Source of the DNA: Pirellulales bacterium
Lineage (GTDB): Bacteria > Planctomycetota > Planctomycetia > Pirellulales > PALSA-1355
Reading direction: 5' to 3'
Length of the DNA stretch: 64,000 nt
NCBI GenBank assembly: GCA_022844125.1
Contig: JALHMI010000007.1
Span: forward strand, 194,896 to 258,895
Numbering within the stretch: position 1 is the stretch's first letter; each line of letters opens with the position of its first letter. Below the pieces are notes generated by a model. That model did not search any database, was not told the DNA's origin, and saw only the letters and a program-made list of their open reading frames with translations. Shown in pieces: positions 3,322-56,092 of this stretch. The position numbers were made by a program, and so were the translations under genes.

Positions 3322-5079
3322 CTAGGCCGTGTCGAGGAGCTTCAGGTTGGGGGCGATTTCGCCGATCTGGTCGGCCATCAGCCGCTGGATGCCGGACATG
3401 GTTTTCAGGCAGAGCGCGCGTTGCAGGATCGCCTCGGCCTTTTCGCGCGTGAGGTGATGCGCGAGCTCTTTAAGCGTGGGGATGAAGGCCGGGCTCATGC
3501 TGAAGCTGCGCAGGCCCATGCCAAACAGCAGCACGAAGGCCCGCGGAGCGCCGGCCATCTCGCCGCACAGCGTGACCGGCTTGTTCGCCGCGCGGCAGGC
3601 GGTGATTACCTTGTTCAAGACCTGCAGGACGGGCGGGCTGAGCGGTTGGCACAGGTGGTTGACCTTCGGATTGTCGCGGTCGGCGGCCATCAGGTATTGC
3701 ACGAGGTCGTTCGAGCCGATCGACACGAAGTCGACGTTCGCGAGCATGGTTTCGATCGTCATGGCCGCGGCGGGCACTTCGAGCATGAAGCCGACCTGCA
3801 CGTCGCCAAACGGTTTGCCCTGGTCGATCAGGCTTTGCCGTGCCTTGCGGACGATCTTGCGCACGCGGCGAATCTCTTCGAGCGTGGTGATCATCGGGAA
3901 CATCATCCGCACGCGCGAGTCGGGCTCGGCCGCCGAGCGCAGGATCGCCCGGATCTGCGTGGTAAAGAACTCGGGATGTTCGAACGAAAGGCGGATCGAG
4001 CGCCAGCCGAGAAACGGGTTCGCCTCGCGGGCATGGCCGAGATAGGGAATCGTCTTGTCGCCGCCAAGGTCGAGCGTGCGGATCGTCACGTGGCGGCTGG
4101 GGCTGGCGGCGATGATCTCGCGATAAGCCGCGAGCTGTTCCTCTTCGTCCGGCACGTCGGGGTGCGTGAGGAACAGGTACTCGGTGCGGAACAAACCAAC
4201 GCCCGAGGCGCCCATGGCGGCGGCCGCCTGCGCATCGCTGAGGTTGTTGATGTTCGCCAGCAATTCGACTTTTTCACCGTCGGCGGTGACGGCCGGCTGA
4301 TCGCGGTTCTCGGCCAGCGCGTCTTTGAGATGGAAGAACTCGCGCTGCAGCTTGAGATAGGCGCTGGCGGTCTCCGGGTCGGGGTTGATGACGACGTGGC
4401 CATCGCGACCGTCGACCACCACGGTGTCCCCCGTCTTGATCGCGCGGAGGATGCCCTTCAGACCAGTGACGGCCGGGACGCCGCGGCTGCGGGCGAGGAT
4501 CGCGGCGTGGCTGGTGCCGCCGCCAGTCTCGGTGACGATGCCGGCCACTTGCCGCTTGCCAAGGGTGACGACTTGCGAGGGGAGCAGTTCCGCGGCTACC
4601 AGGATCAAGGGTTCAGGGAGCGAGGCGAGTTGCGGTTGCAGGACGTCGGAGAGGTGGCCGCTGATGCGGATCACGACGTCGCGCAAGTCGGCCAGGCGCT
4701 CCTTGAGATAGTCGTCGTGCGTGCTCTCGAAGAGCTTGGTGTACTCTTCAAGCAGACGGTGCAGCGCGCTCTGGGCGCTATGCTGCTCGTCAACGATCCA
4801 GGCCCGGACCTTCGAGCGGAACGAGGGGTCGTGCAGGATCGCCTCGTGGGCGCGAAAGATGCCGGCCTCGTCGGGGCCGACCTGCGTAGCGACCTTCTGA
4901 TACAGGGCACGGAGATCGGCAGCGACTCGTTCGCAGGCGCCGTCATAGCGCTGGAGCTCGGCCAGGACCTCGGACTTGTCGATCTGGCGAGTCTCGGGAT
5001 TGACGAAAATCTCGTGGATGCAGTACGCCGTACCAATGGCCACACCCGGAGAAACGCCGATCCCTTTTCGCATGGTCAA
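3322..5079 (-). CDS. ptsI: Phosphoenolpyruvate-protein phosphotransferase (PTS enzyme I)
   Basis: A 585-residue protein, the usual enzyme I length. In order it has an N-terminal HPr-binding helical region, a phosphohistidine domain with GGGTSHAAILARSRG (His about residue 190) and a C-terminal PEP-binding TIM barrel with the GVGLFRTEYLF, GSNDLVQY and TLCGEMAG motifs that carry the Mg/PEP ligands and the catalytic Cys. It transfers phosphate from PEP to HPr in the cytoplasm. No HPr, EIIA or permease gene lies beside it, so in this organism it may serve regulation (EIIA-Ntr or HPr kinase) as much as transport. No GAF domain is present, so it is not the EI-Ntr (PtsP) type. Start could be either Met of MTMRKG. 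Confidence 0.95.
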   Translation of the reverse strand: MTMRKGIGVSPGVAIGTAYCIHEIFVNPETRQIDKSEVLAELQRYDGACERVAADLRALYQKVATQVGPDEAGIFRAHEAILHDPSFRSKVRAWIVDEQHSAQSALHRLLEEYTKLFESTHDDYLKERLADLRDVVIRISGHLSDVLQPQLASLPEPLILVAAELLPSQVVTLGKRQVAGIVTETGGGTSHAAILARSRGVPAVTGLKGILRAIKTGDTVVVDGRDGHVVINPDPETASAYLKLQREFFHLKDALAENRDQPAVTADGEKVELLANINNLSDAQAAAAMGASGVGLFRTEYLFLTHPDVPDEEEQLAAYREIIAASPSRHVTIRTLDLGGDKTIPYLGHAREANPFLGWRSIRLSFEHPEFFTTQIRAILRSAAEPDSRVRMMFPMITTLEEIRRVRKIVRKARQSLIDQGKPFGDVQVGFMLEVPAAAMTIETMLANVDFVSIGSNDLVQYLMAADRDNPKVNHLCQPLSPPVLQVLNKVITACRAANKPVTLCGEMAGAPRAFVLLFGMGLRSFSMSPAFIPTLKELAHHLTREKAEAILQRALCLKTMSGIQRLMADQIGEIAPNLKLLDTA

Positions 5080-6642: not shown

Positions 6643-6981
6643 CTAACCCGCGGCCACTGGCGCCTTGTGGCGCTCCAACTTGGGCGGCTCTGGTGCCGCC
6701 CGCTCTGACTTGCGGGTCAGCAAGTAGACGAGTGGACCAAAGGACCCCAGCGCGAAGGTGGCCACAATCCAGGGCCAGGGATTTCTGCCCAAGCGTTTGG
6801 CGTCGTGCCACATCCAGGTGAGCACGAGGACGAGTGCGATCGCGAGATCGACGAGGACCTGCAGGCCCGCGCTGGACTGCATGTGGAGGGTGAAAATACC
6901 CAAATAGCCATACTGCCAGAGTGCGAGCCCGGTCAGGGCTGCAAACGGCACGAGCGCGGCAATCAACAGCAGCTTTTGCAT
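6643..6981 (-). CDS. Small membrane protein, DUF2834-like
   Basis: A 112-residue protein with three hydrophobic segments (about residues 3-22, 42-60 and 70-88) and a charged C-terminal tail (KSERAAPEPPKLERHK). The blocks LWQYGYLGIF, DLAIALVLVLTWMWHDAKRLGRNPWPW and LGSFGPLVYLL match the DUF2834 pattern as I remember it. Function is unknown in the family. It is divergent from the HTH regulator at 7114, and a perfect palindrome in the shared gap suggests that regulator controls it. Confidence 0.75.
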   Translation of the reverse strand: MQKLLLIAALVPFAALTGLALWQYGYLGIFTLHMQSSAGLQVLVDLAIALVLVLTWMWHDAKRLGRNPWPWIVATFALGSFGPLVYLLTRKSERAAPEPPKLERHKAPVAAG

Positions 6982-7056
6982 GGAAATACCCCCCTAGCAT
7001 CAAGATTCGTGTGACGCGGTAAAAGTCTCTGGGAACTATGCAGCGGGTCCGTCATG

Positions 7057-7085
7057 GATTCAATTACCAGTGAGGTAATTGAATC
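7057..7085. promoter_or_regulatory. Perfect 12-bp inverted repeat, likely operator
   Basis: GATTCAATTACC (7057-7068), 5-bp spacer AGTGA, GGTAATTGAATC (7074-7085). It lies between the DUF2834-like gene (leftward, start 6981) and the HTH regulator (rightward, start 7114). A third near-identical half site, GATTCAAATA, lies at 7098-7107 just before the regulator's ATG. This is the usual position for autoregulation of an XRE/MmyB regulator and a divergent target. Confidence 0.7.
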
Positions 7086-7113
7086 GCGAAAAGCGGGGAT
7101 TCAAATAGTTGTC

Positions 7114-7956
7114 ATGCACACAGTCGAACCCAGGTTAACGGTGACCTTGCGGCAAGCGCGACGTGCGCGCCGGCTCAGCCAGCTCGAGCTTTCGTTGAGG
7201 CTGGGGGTTTCGCAGCGGCACGTCAGCTTCGTCGAGAGCGGGCGCGCCCGGCCGAGCCGCGAACTGCTGCTGGCCTGGCTGCGAGAGCTTGAAGCGTCGC
7301 TGGTCCTGAGCAACGAGGTGCTCCTGTCGGCCGGCTTTGCTCCGGCGTTTGGCAAAGCGAAGCTGGAAGATCCCGCACTTGCGCAAGTGAATCATGCGCT
7401 GAAGCGGCTTTTGTCGACGCACGACCCGATGCCGGCGCTGCTGCTGGATGCCGATTGGAACGTGCTCGAAATGAACCGGGGCGCGCGGTGGTTGGCGGCC
7501 ACGCTGGTTCCGTGGGCCGCGGAGATGGCATCACAAGGCCCCGTGAACATGCTCGATCTGCTCGCGCATCCCGCGGGGTTTCTGACCAGGATCACGAACC
7601 TGGGCGAAGTCGGCGCGCCGCTGCTGGCACACCTGCGGCACGAGGCCGGCACCAACGCGCGGCTTGCCGAGCGAGTCGAAGCAATCGCGGCCTTAGTTGC
7701 AGCCCGGGTCGGTAGTGATCCTCGGCAGCAGGGTTGGCACCGCCCCGTCGCACCGGTGCTGACGACGCGCTATGAGACGCCGCACGGAGAGCTGGCGCTG
7801 TTCAGCGTATTTACGACTTTCGGAACCCCGCAAGACATCACGCTGGCGTCCCTGCGCGTCGAGCACTTGTTTGCGGCCGACGCGGTGACGGAGCAAGTTC
7901 TGCGGACGCAGGTTCCCGTCAGCCAGGCGAGCAATAGCACGCCGATCGTACCGTAA
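7114..7956 (+). CDS. XRE-family transcriptional regulator with MmyB-type ligand-binding domain
   Basis: A 280-residue protein. Residues about 8-65 form an HTH (LRQARRARRLSQLELSLRLGVSQRHVSFVESGRARPS). The rest is the MmyB PAS-like ligand-binding domain (ALLLDADWNVLEMNRGARWL, then a PHGELALFSVFTTFGTPQDITLASLRVEHLFAAD block). Fatty-acid or related ligands are known for this family. Start 7114 is preferred over 7054 because the upstream choice would place the palindromic operator inside the coding region, and the ATG at 7114 gives the normal short lead to the HTH. The last dozen residues (QASNSTPIVP end) read over an antisense gene remnant and look like a replaced C-terminus. Confidence 0.85.
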   Translation: MHTVEPRLTVTLRQARRARRLSQLELSLRLGVSQRHVSFVESGRARPSRELLLAWLRELEASLVLSNEVLLSAGFAPAFGKAKLEDPALAQVNHALKRLLSTHDPMPALLLDADWNVLEMNRGARWLAATLVPWAAEMASQGPVNMLDLLAHPAGFLTRITNLGEVGAPLLAHLRHEAGTNARLAERVEAIAALVAARVGSDPRQQGWHRPVAPVLTTRYETPHGELALFSVFTTFGTPQDITLASLRVEHLFAADAVTEQVLRTQVPVSQASNSTPIVP

Positions 7957-8143: not shown

Positions 8144-10060
8144 TCACTGCAGATTTCGGCGACGACGGGCAGCAATAATTGCAACAGTGCCAAGGGCCGC
8201 CAGGATCATGCTCGACGGTTCGGGGACCCCGATCGCTTGGCTCTCGATGAGAAAGACTTGCCCCTGGTCGGTGTTGAAGGCCAGGCCATGCGCACCGTAG
8301 CGGAGTAGCGTATAGGAGCCGGCATTGCCGACCTCGGGAATCGTGAGCGTGTCGATCTGGATGAACGTGGCCATATCGAAGATGCGAATCGTCTGTCCAC
8401 GGAGCATGTAAACGTGACCGGCTTCGGCATCGACGGCAACCCCGCCGGAAAACTCGCCGCCCGAGAATTGACCTGCCGCGGTAAAGTCCGTCAGGTCGAA
8501 AGCGCGGGCTTGCGTGCTCACGAGCAAGTCGCCGTCGAGAGCGATTCCCGGATCGGGCCCGCCCAGGGCTCCGCCGTATTGCGCGCTGAGCGAGTCGCCC
8601 GGTCCGAGGGTGACTTTGGCGAGGTTCTGACCGCTCGTCGCATAGAACGTGCTGGGGTCGGGCGAATAGGCCAGGTTGTAGGCGGCGATGCCCACGATTG
8701 GGTCGTGCGTGAACGTCGTGCCGTCGAACTGCCAGACCTGCAAGCCGACATACTGGGGGCTTCCGGCCCGTAGCAGTGAAGCCACGAACGTGTCGGGTCG
8801 CGTGGGCACCGCGGCCAGGTCGGCAACGATGTAGTTCTCGGGCACGGTCGACTGCGGCCCGGGCGTCATCGAGTTGAGATCGAGGGCTCGGATCTTGAAT
8901 GCGCCGGAAATGTCGACGTACATCTGCGAACCATCGGACGAGACCGTAATCGCTTGCGGTTCGCTGCCAATGAAGGTCGAGTCCATGATGGTGCGCGTGA
9001 CCAGATCGATTCGCGTAATGGAGTTTCCGACGCCGACACCGCCGCTGGAGGGCACCGCCGCATAGAGAATGTCGCGCACCGGGTCCATCTTCAGAGCGTT
9101 GACGGGGAGATCGAGGATCGTCTTCGAGGTAACGACGCCTGCCGAAGCGGGTTGGATCCCGAGGAATAGCCCCAGCGCACCGAGCACCGCGAGCGAGGTG
9201 CCTCGTCTCGAGAACCGCCGGCATCCGAATACGGCCAGGATCCCCAGCGCTGCGAGCATCAAGCTCGACGGTTCGGGGACGGTGAGGCCAGCGAACTGGC
9301 CGAGGGGATCGAAGTTCTTGTACTCGGTGACGCCATCGAGGCCGGCGTTGAAGAGGTGCAGTCGGCCAGCACCGATGGCGTACACGCCATTCAGTCCCAC
9401 GGCCACGTCATCGATCGCGCCGCCCGTGTAGTAGAACTGCCCTTCGGAAGACGCAGTGACATTCACTGGGTCGATTCGCACGAGTGAGATCAGGCCCGCG
9501 TCGTTGTCCATGGTGAGCAGGCTGCCGGGCTGGGCTGGGTGGTCGCTCATGCCGTCCAGGTCGACGCCAAAGCTGCCATACAGGTTGCCGATGCCCGGGA
9601 TGGCCTGGTAGTTGATGTTGCCGGTGATTGCGCCGGTGAGAGGGTTGATCTCGCCAACATCGGTGCTGACCGTTCCGCCGGGCGAAAAGCCCACGTAGAG
9701 TTTGCCGTTCGCGACGCCGATGCTCTCCATGAAAAACGGCTTGTTGCCGTTGAGCAGGATCTCGGTGCTGTGCAAGAGCGCACCGGTCTGCGGATTGATC
9801 TTGAGCAGCGAATAGCCGGCGTTGGCGAAGAAGCCGTCGGCATGGGCGGTGATCGCAAAAATCGAGCCGTCGAGATAAGCAAGATCGGCGCCGAAGAATT
9901 GGAAGCCGATTGGGCCGACAGTCGTAACGGCCGCAGTTTCGGAATTGATTCGCATCAACGTGCTGGCTGCGGTGTTGATCGTGTAGAGCGATTCGGCGGC
10001 GGCGGGCGCGGCGCTTGACGCCAGGCCGAACAGCAACGTTATTTTCAGGCAGGTGTTCAT
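8144..10060 (-). CDS. Secreted two-part beta-propeller-like protein with two PEP-CTERM signals
   Basis: A 638-residue protein with an N-terminal signal peptide (MNTCLKITLLFG to AAAES). Residues about 25-255 form repeated short beta units (YTINTAAST, LLKINPQTGAL, VGEINPLTGAI) like a propeller. A complete PEP-CTERM signal follows at about 261-287 (VPEPSSLMLAALG, then CRRFSRR). Another hydrophobic signal-like segment (about 290-310, ending QPASAG) leads a second propeller-like part, and the protein ends in a second PEP-CTERM signal at 612-638 (VPEPSSMILAALG, then AARRRR). PEP-CTERM is the exosortase sorting tag, normally only at the extreme C-terminus. It looks like an in-frame fusion of two secreted proteins. 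ATG 10060 gives the signal peptide at residue 1. Confidence 0.8.
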   Translation of the reverse strand: MNTCLKITLLFGLASSAAPAAAESLYTINTAASTLMRINSETAAVTTVGPIGFQFFGADLAYLDGSIFAITAHADGFFANAGYSLLKINPQTGALLHSTEILLNGNKPFFMESIGVANGKLYVGFSPGGTVSTDVGEINPLTGAITGNINYQAIPGIGNLYGSFGVDLDGMSDHPAQPGSLLTMDNDAGLISLVRIDPVNVTASSEGQFYYTGGAIDDVAVGLNGVYAIGAGRLHLFNAGLDGVTEYKNFDPLGQFAGLTVPEPSSLMLAALGILAVFGCRRFSRRGTSLAVLGALGLFLGIQPASAGVVTSKTILDLPVNALKMDPVRDILYAAVPSSGGVGVGNSITRIDLVTRTIMDSTFIGSEPQAITVSSDGSQMYVDISGAFKIRALDLNSMTPGPQSTVPENYIVADLAAVPTRPDTFVASLLRAGSPQYVGLQVWQFDGTTFTHDPIVGIAAYNLAYSPDPSTFYATSGQNLAKVTLGPGDSLSAQYGGALGGPDPGIALDGDLLVSTQARAFDLTDFTAAGQFSGGEFSGGVAVDAEAGHVYMLRGQTIRIFDMATFIQIDTLTIPEVGNAGSYTLLRYGAHGLAFNTDQGQVFLIESQAIGVPEPSSMILAALGTVAIIAARRRRNLQ

Positions 10061-10398
10061 GGTGTTGTCCTTGGTTAGGTGCGCAGCGCGGAGCGCGCGA
10101 CGAGTCATGGTGCGAAGTCGAACCGAAGCGGGCGCGAACGCGGTCCGAGCGAGAGAGCTGGCGAAATGGACGAGGGGCGTCGGGCTAGCGGGACCGTGGA
10201 GAAAGTCGAAAGAGGATGTCAGGCAGCTTTCCAGGTTAGCGGTGTGCAGAGCGCCATTCAAGGGGTGCGACCACCGCCGCACCGCGAGGAATTGCCCGAG
10301 AAATTGGCCGGAACTGGCGGCCGCGGGCTAATTGCGCTGACAGTGGGGCTATGCTTCGAGTAGACTGGGGCTACCTTAACCCCTCGGAGACTGAACGC

Positions 10399-12247: not shown

Positions 12248-12281
12248 CGGGTCGCGCTCAGCGTTGCGTGAGCGCGACCCG
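12248..12281. terminator. Perfect 13-bp hairpin between sulfatase and cyanophycinase-like genes
   Basis: CGGGTCGCGCTCA (12248-12260) pairs perfectly with TGAGCGCGACCCG (12269-12281) around an 8-base loop. No T-run follows, so it may be a transcript-stabilising or attenuating hairpin rather than a complete intrinsic terminator. Confidence 0.55.
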
Positions 12282-17224: not shown

Positions 17225-17265
17225 AAACTCCGGGCCTAAGGCTGGCCGCCCCGGGCCCGGAGTTT
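17225..17265 (-). terminator. Intrinsic terminator downstream of sodC
   Basis: Stem AAACTCCGGGCC (17225-17236) with GGCCCGGAGTTT (17254-17265). Read leftward it lies 33 bases past the sodC stop and is followed by TTCTTCTT. On the plus strand TTTCTGTTT follows, so it may work in both directions. Confidence 0.75.
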
Positions 17266-54994: not shown

Positions 54995-56092
54995 TTAGGC
55001 TCCGGTGCCCAGGAAAGTCTTCAGGCACGCGTAAACGGCTTCCTTGTTTTCGATTTCGGCAGTGACCAGTCGCGGTTCATCTTCAGCGAAGTCGAGCGAG
55101 CGGATGAACTCGCCGCTGCCGTAGGGGCTCTCGACCTGGCCGTAACAGAACAGGTTCACGTGCGGCAGGATTTCGTTCTTGAGCAGGTCCAGGCTCCGTT
55201 CGTTGTCTTCACCCCAGTTGTCGCCATCGGAAAACTGGAAGCAATAAATGTTCCACTCGCTGGGGGGAAATGTCCGGTTGATCAGCTCGGCGCACACGCG
55301 GTATGCCGAGCTGATCCGCGTGCCGCCACTTTCACGGGTGTGATAGAAAGTCTCCTCGTCGACTTCCTTGGCGGCCGCGTCGTGGATGATGTAGCGGCGT
55401 TCGAGACCCTTGTACTGGCTGCGGAGCCAGGTATCGAGCCAGAACGCAGCCGTGCGGACGATCTCTTTCTGGTCGTCGGTCATCGAGCCCGAGACGTCCA
55501 TCATGTAGATGATGGCGGCATTGGCTTCAGGCAGATTGACTTCGTTCCAGGCCCGGTAGCGTCTGTCTTCGCGAATGGGGACGACGCGCGGGCGATCCGG
55601 CACATAGGTGTTTGACGAAATCTGCCGACGCAGGGCCTCCATGTAGGTCCGCTTGAAATGGCGGAGCGACTCGGGCCCGCTGCGGCGGATGCTCGTGTAG
55701 CGCGACTTTTCCTGCTCGATGTTGGCCGTGCCCTTGGGCTCGATGCGGGGGAGTTCGAGCTCTTCGCCCAGGATTGCCGCCAGCTCTTCGAGCGAGACTT
55801 CAACTTCGAGCAGGTGCCGGCCCGGATCGCTGCCGGCGCCGCCTGCGCCACCTTCACCGTCGTCGCCTTTGCCGATGGGAGTGCCGGGCTCGCCATCGCC
55901 CTGGCCGACACCGCCATTGCCATTCTTGCCATAACGGAAGTGGGGCACGTCGAGCTGCGGAATCGGGATACTGACCAGATCGCGACCTTTGCGGCCGATC
56001 ATCTCGCCGTTGGTGACGTACTTGCGAAGATTCTGGCGAATCTTCCCGCGTACGATCTGCTTGAATCGCGACAGGTCGTGTTCGATTCTCAT
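54995..56092 (-). CDS. YeaH/DUF444 family von Willebrand factor A protein
   Basis: A 365-residue protein. [25 protein letters not shown] is the family start, then a Gly-rich linker ([13 protein letters not shown]), then a VWA domain with the MIDAS motif [16 protein letters not shown] and [11 protein letters not shown]. It probably scaffolds PrkA and SpoVR through metal-dependent binding. It is the second gene of the operon, about 204 bases after prkA. Confidence 0.95.

Follow-up and report, generated by a model that had tools for sequence, protein, structure and literature searches.

The palindromic core at positions 7061 to 7081 of the window, which is the whole 64,000-nucleotide stretch of Pirellulales DNA analyzed here, is very likely the operator of the adjacent MLTR regulator and would jointly control the regulator gene and a divergent DUF2834 gene. 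This reading draws on features of the sequence: a candidate operator that is conserved together with the gene pair, stands at a constant distance from a -10-like box on the DUF2834 side, and has no clear copies elsewhere. The palindrome and the genes on either side of it are as follows.

7057-7085, full palindrome with perfect 12-bp arms: GATTCAATTACC (7057-7068)-AGTGA-GGTAATTGAATC (7074-7085), arms 100% complementary, gap of 5 nt
7061-7081, no strand, putative operator core: CAATTACC-N5-GGTAATTG, the conserved part of the 7057-7085 palindrome
7114-7956, plus strand, MLTR (MmyB-like) regulator: XRE-type HTH and PAS-like ligand-binding domain, Pfam HTH_3 and PF17765 above cut-off, model compared with 3pxp
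6643-6981, minus strand, DUF2834 small membrane protein, the putative divergent target: PF11196, 25.8 bits (cut-off, 22.9)
6989-6995, minus strand, putative Shine-Dalgarno-like AGGGGGG of the DUF2834 gene, read from the sequence

The palindrome and its flanking genes

The start codons of the two genes, at 6981 on the minus strand and 7114 on the plus strand, leave a gap of 132 bp. The first-pass annotation had reported a perfect 12-bp inverted repeat between these divergent genes, and the sequence confirms it. When the 132-bp gap was simulated with a first-order Markov model, 1 of 20,000 runs produced a perfect 12-bp repeat with its arms ≤20 nt apart. Simulated 64-kb windows contained a mean of 0.18 such repeat pairs (n = 200) versus 5 in the real window, two of which are overlapping registers of one repeat. 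Further perfect inverted repeats with arms of at least 12 bp, possibly terminators, lie at 12248 to 12281, 17225 to 17265, and 55280 to 55316 of the window. A search for additional copies of the palindrome, as had been advised, found the full palindrome only once in its own 6.44-Mb genome, which also carries one MLTR gene and one DUF2834 gene.

The right-hand gene had been assigned to the MmyB family, in agreement with its domains. HTH_3 scores 39.5 bits (cut-off, 23) and MLTR_LBD (PF17765) scores 73.3 bits (cut-off, 26.3), the latter covering profile positions 1 to 166 of 168. Upstream, the open frame continues as far as an ATG at 7054, which borders the palindrome, and the homologs and their conserved region begin at the ATG equivalent to 7114. 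The structural model of the regulator matches MltR (PDB 3pxp) over the full length (Foldseek E value, 1.6e-9; TM score, 0.48; VIA Z score, 14.1; rmsd, 8.0 over 244 residues), and a difference in how the domains are arranged may explain the high rmsd. The fold search found 3pxp, which was not among the matches of a PDB sequence search with the regulator profile.

The left-hand protein, previously noted as DUF2834-like, indeed scores above the PF11196 cut-off. PF11196 matches 50 of 59 DUF2834 relatives, the window included, at E values of up to 1, and it gave no match at 0.001 to the proteins of L003 and L024; the DUF2834 alignment comprised 59 rows of 64 available. The model of the window protein has a mean pLDDT of 75.5, with helices at residues 2 to 33, 37 to 64, 69 to 78, and 81 to 89. 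Against the PDB, it gave no match at an E value of ≤0.001 and no Z score of ≥5 among the 12 chains aligned, an absence that proves nothing. ABA4-like (PF14108) gave weak matches to 10 of 59 DUF2834 members (best E value, 0.0018) and a profile-profile probability of 2%, and PLDc_N gave weak matches only. The one comment on DUF2834 function found in the literature is a soil correlation-network inference about glycosyl compounds (PMC6155114), which is given no weight here. On the minus strand at 8144 to 10282, the window also contains a 712-amino-acid open frame with two PEP-CTERM motifs, maybe two surface proteins joined in one frame.

Conservation of the operator with the gene pair

One scan of a species genome set yielded 80 relatives of the regulator. 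The close set consisted of 51 loci (L003 to L051, L056, and L067; 46% to 67% identity) and the window, and L054 (52% identity; partial, with 104 bases before the match) was placed in the distant set. The regulator alignment held 48 rows from the window and the 80 loci; L005, L006, L017, L024, L036, L045, L056, and L071 were left out because their match range contains a stop or an interrupted frame, and other loci, mostly similar to kept rows, were also omitted.

A divergent DUF2834 homolog adjoins the regulator in 50 of the 51 fetched close loci, the exception being L049, and the gene pair is present in cyanobacteria, Burkholderiales, other proteobacteria, Acidobacteria, and Armatimonadetes. 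The palindrome had been proposed as an operator common to the MmyB/MLTR-type regulator and the divergent DUF2834 gene, an idea that would suffer if the palindrome were not conserved where the gene pair is. Of the 52 close loci, the window included, 50 carry the core with ≥13 of its 16 arm bases, which supports the proposal, and this count overstates the number of independent cases because many close loci are interrelated (Nodosilinea and Comamonadaceae). The core is missing in L049, which also lacks DUF2834, and in L047, where the gap itself is missing. Around position 4001, L047 has neither the intergenic DNA nor the two gene starts, and its DUF2834 frame starts within the regulator match, either because the sequence was misassembled at the palindrome or because a deletion occurred.

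The 13 distant loci linked to DUF2834, with regulators about 32% to 41% identical to that of the window, all carry the operator at 12 to 15 of 16 arm bases. The best chance core score elsewhere in the close and DUF2834-linked loci was 9 to 13, with 14 in L004 and L017, and among the other distant loci, the best score elsewhere reached 14 in L071 and 16 in L079. The perfect 16/16 core of L079 (3147 to 3167) precedes an alpha/beta-hydrolase-like frame that runs into the MLTR regulator frame, a different target arrangement.

Across 24 close rows, identity to the window is 92% in the arms versus 39% at fourfold-degenerate codon sites, indicating that the conservation of the arms is not simply due to recent common ancestry. 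The 21-bp core is the strongest conserved block of the gap in the 50 aligned close loci. The extent given to the palindrome by the first-pass annotation stands in the window, where the 12-bp arms are perfect, and not among the relatives, where only 8 bp per arm are conserved and the outer GATT/AATC is Watson-Crick paired in 10 to 22 of 50 close loci. Just outside the left arm, positions 7050 to 7055 of the window read CGTCAT; at the corresponding positions -11 to -6 of the core, the A and T nearest the arm are present in 42 and 43 of 50 relatives, and GGTNAT, which resembles an extra half site, occurs in 11 of 50 close loci, mostly those of cyanobacteria and Acidobacteria.

The perfect arms and 5-nt loop of the window could also be read as an RNA hairpin, either a terminator or a leader structure. 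The element lies upstream of both putative starts, it has no T-run, and changes in one arm are for the most part not matched in the other; G replaces core C7 in 14 of 50 close loci, its partner being G in all 50, and the main exception is pair 4/16, with A-T for T-A in 5 of 13 distant loci. Because the arm substitutions are mostly uncompensated, protein-bound DNA fits better than an RNA stem, and the hairpin was rejected as extremely improbable.

Besides DUF2834, conserved neighbors are limited to a gene order common to six cyanobacterial loci and to additional small genes in some proteobacteria. Beside the DUF2834 gene, L017, L018, L055, L019, L021, L029, and L048 encode one more small protein that looks like a membrane protein; in the first three of these, it sits between the regulator and DUF2834 genes or just after DUF2834. 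The protein has no Pfam match in L018, L019, and L055. A DUF6713 gene is also found beside DUF2834 in L019.

Promoter elements and the proposed switch

Two -10-like elements were located in the gap, on either side of the palindrome.

7035-7040, minus strand, putative -10 of the DUF2834 promoter: CATAGT, 17 bp from the -35-like TTGAAT (7058-7063) in the left arm
7101-7106, plus strand, putative -10 of the regulator promoter: TCAAAT, 16 bp from TTGAAT (7079-7084), within the former "third half site" at 7098-7107

In the close loci, a block at -26 to -22 of the core reads, on the plus strand, A (50/50), G (45/50), T (49/50), a variable base, and T (49/50). On the minus strand, this block is NANACT and lies 17 bp from the left-arm TTG hexamer, which fits a -10/-35 pair of the DUF2834 gene. 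These promoter boxes were called by eye on the alignment and are poor matches to the consensus. The three bases of the left-arm TTG/CAA are kept in 50, 49, and 50 of 50 close loci, and those of the right-arm TTG are kept in 50, 34 (T19), and 36 (G20); this asymmetry is in keeping with an additional promoter function on the side of DUF2834, and the lower conservation of the right-arm outer TTG suggests that the right-hand -35 is weak or variable.

The sequence GATTCAAATA is present at 7098 to 7107, where the first-pass annotation had placed a third half site. Apart from CAA, the bases that it has in common with the palindrome arm are the outer, nonconserved ones; it lacks the conserved TTACC core and lies at a conserved -10-like box tied to the start codon, which argues against a role as an operator half site. 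This box, TGATTCAAT, precedes the regulator start in the relatives, with the window TCAAAT in register. Allowing ≤2 mismatches and an end 3 to 12 nt before the start codon, it is found in 34 of 52 close loci versus a shuffled mean of 1.93 and maximum of 7 (n = 200), a comparison whose consensus was built from these very loci and whose shuffled controls take no account of relatedness. In 29 of these 34 loci, precisely 6 nt separate the box from the start codon. The box may be an extended -10 (TG-N-TTCAAT) whose transcript would begin at the ATG or next to it, and the regulator message would therefore be leaderless.

An operator with three half sites, in which the regulator also binds at 7098 and control is cooperative, would draw on the presence of GATTCAA at both 7057 and 7098 and of GATTCAATTACC in the L056 palindrome as well. 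The bases common to the box and the arm are precisely the nonconserved ones, and the box keeps its place at the ATG in L044 and L051 although the palindrome has shifted away; in L049, TGCTGGAAT stands seven bases before the ATG with neither palindrome nor DUF2834. Such an arrangement is thus highly improbable, and the 7098 element is better regarded as a promoter-side element than as an operator half site.

In the mechanism proposed for the two-armed operator, a regulator dimer would bind a single dedicated site, with one recognition helix per ATTACC half, and the outer TTG on each side would begin the -35 of two back-to-back promoters. The leftward promoter would drive DUF2834, and the rightward one would drive the regulator, probably as a leaderless message. 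A small ligand in the PAS-like domain would alter binding and thereby switch both genes. A ligand-controlled switch, as first suggested, is plausible, with a PAS-like MLTR_LBD present and the model matching MltR over its full length. In the crystal of MltR, a bound fatty acid was modeled as myristate; the authors state that the natural ligand is not known and suggest that a ligand induces dimerization and DNA binding, as given in passages of PMC3406030. The fatty-acid-like ligand pocket of MltR is marked by Tyr227, Tyr258, and Asn176. A fatty-acid-like ligand for the window regulator would be an extension from this one crystal structure.

The operator center (7071) lies about 42 to 43 bp from both predicted transcription starts (approximately 7113 and 7028), a position that suits class II activation, with the dimer touching sigma at either promoter, as well as occlusion of the -35 elements. 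Ligand-dependent activation of DUF2834 is slightly favored because both promoters look weak and the family is described as activators. A symmetric repressor acting at the same operator, which would cover both -35 elements and keep DUF2834 and the regulator off until the ligand releases it, has somewhat less than an even chance. The overlap of the operator with both putative -35 elements speaks for repression, as does MsrR, a divergent XRE-type regulator of Corynebacterium glutamicum that, according to passages of PMC7532634, represses itself and its divergent neighbor. However, the weak -10 (NANACT) and partial -35 suggest promoters that need help, and passages of PMC3406030 describe the MmyB family as activators.

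Operator variants, origin, and known systems

No good evidence of further operators was found in the window's own genome and the genomes of 21 relatives. At ≤2 mismatches to ATTACCTNNNAGGTAAT, the own genome has 6 sites versus 2 for the reversed control, and none of the other five is within one mismatch. At ≤1 mismatch, the 21 relatives' genomes have 34 sites versus 10 for the reversed control, with exactly one site in 13 genomes; the count does not include the local operators of at least L065 and L068, which are two bases away from ATTACCTNNNAGGTAAT. Since the pair appears self-contained and further operators are scarcely indicated, two genes should suffice for testing its ligand and function.

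Among the 16 distant loci without DUF2834, six (L052, L053, L062, L063, L077, and L082) score 13 to 14. The streptomycete-type L059, L060, L061, and L073 carry CGATGAACTC-N3-GTTCATGG or a close form (ATGAAC-N5-GTTCAT) about 42 bp before the aligned regulator start, and L078 and L080 have a related palindrome in a similar position; no palindrome of this type was found in L075 and L071. The recognition-helix segment is QRHVSF in the window's branch, PRYVSL in L060 and L073, and ARHVSL in L078. The actinomycete palindromes suggest a family-wide operator code. The neighbor of the regulator is a SnoaL-like protein in L073 and L078 and a small protein without a Pfam match, membrane-like by eye, in L063 and L077.

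As the binder cannot be named from sequence alone, the operator might belong to another regulator, with the MLTR gene only a chance neighbor. This is very unlikely to be so, as the operator accompanies MLTR genes over several phyla, including loci without DUF2834 (14 of 16 arm bases in L063, L077, and L082), and changes together with the HTH in actinomycetes.

Among the 392 genomes sampled from the window's phylum, only 4, the window's own included, have a regulator match at an E value of 1e-20, and the other three are 30% to 40% identical; the scan may omit records of or near the own genome, so closer relatives could be missed. In the tree, the window regulator groups with 8 cyanobacterial rows (99/91), and this clustering suggests horizontal gain by this planctomycete lineage as the simple reading. 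A link between the switch and the FabZ/FabG genes to the left had also been raised and does not hold. FabZ is present in 0 of 80 regulator loci and a FabG-like SDR in 6 of 80; fabZ is found in 14 of 15 genomes of the order, the own genome included, and fabZ and fabG are adjacent in two of the five planctomycete stretches examined (L132, which ends soon after fabG, and L136), without the regulator pair there. With FabZ absent from the regulator loci and the fabZ-fabG pair occurring without the regulator pair, the adjacency in the window is incidental, and the partnership was rejected for lack of conserved adjacency.

A broader and more tentative view, doubtful as a whole, is that the MLTR sensor, operator, and DUF2834 may form a compact, horizontally mobile, ligand-gated unit that responds to lipids or membranes in at least five phyla, with a code of ATTACC/GGTAAT versus ATGAAC/GTTCAT in actinomycetes that would be set by the recognition helix.

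No literature on the gene pair or operator was found in titles, starts of abstracts, and passages, a coverage that does not extend to most subscription journals or to the 223-cluster list of PMC12565409. Passages of the latter survey report palindromic motifs upstream of XRE genes in 223 motif clusters, with 9 of 10 tested motifs bound (PMC12565409). MsrR of C. glutamicum is likewise an XRE-type regulator that acts on a divergent intergenic region and its own gene, but in passages of PMC7532634 it senses oxidation via Cys62 and its divergent target is an MFS pump. The closest likeness is with MltR (Caur_2278; PDB 3pxp) and the MmyB-like family, which also combine an XRE HTH with a PAS-like MLTR_LBD, with a full-length fold match, and for which coelicolor paralogs are reported in passages of PMC3406030. 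The window regulator has the family's feature of standing divergent from its putative target across a short common upstream region (132 bp). Relative to the family as described in those passages, its target is a DUF2834 membrane protein rather than an SDR/MDR or antibiotic gene, its branch is found mainly in cyanobacteria and proteobacteria, and a candidate operator sequence is defined here, none having been found for the family in that part of PMC3406030.

The system joins the known MLTR/MmyB-like kind, and its target, DUF2834, is unstudied. With a candidate operator sequence, binding can be tested directly in a large sensor family, for which no DNA sites were found in the literature searched, and the uncharacterized DUF2834 family becomes tied to one dedicated regulator in very distant bacteria. 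A parallel in geometry is lambda cI at OR2/PRM, where a 17-bp operator with ACC/GGT halves lies at about -42, touching the -35, and supports class II activation. The window operator resembles OR2/PRM in its ACC/GGT halves and in its position at about -42 touching the -35, whereas lambda cI differs in having no PAS-like sensor and in using three tandem operators.
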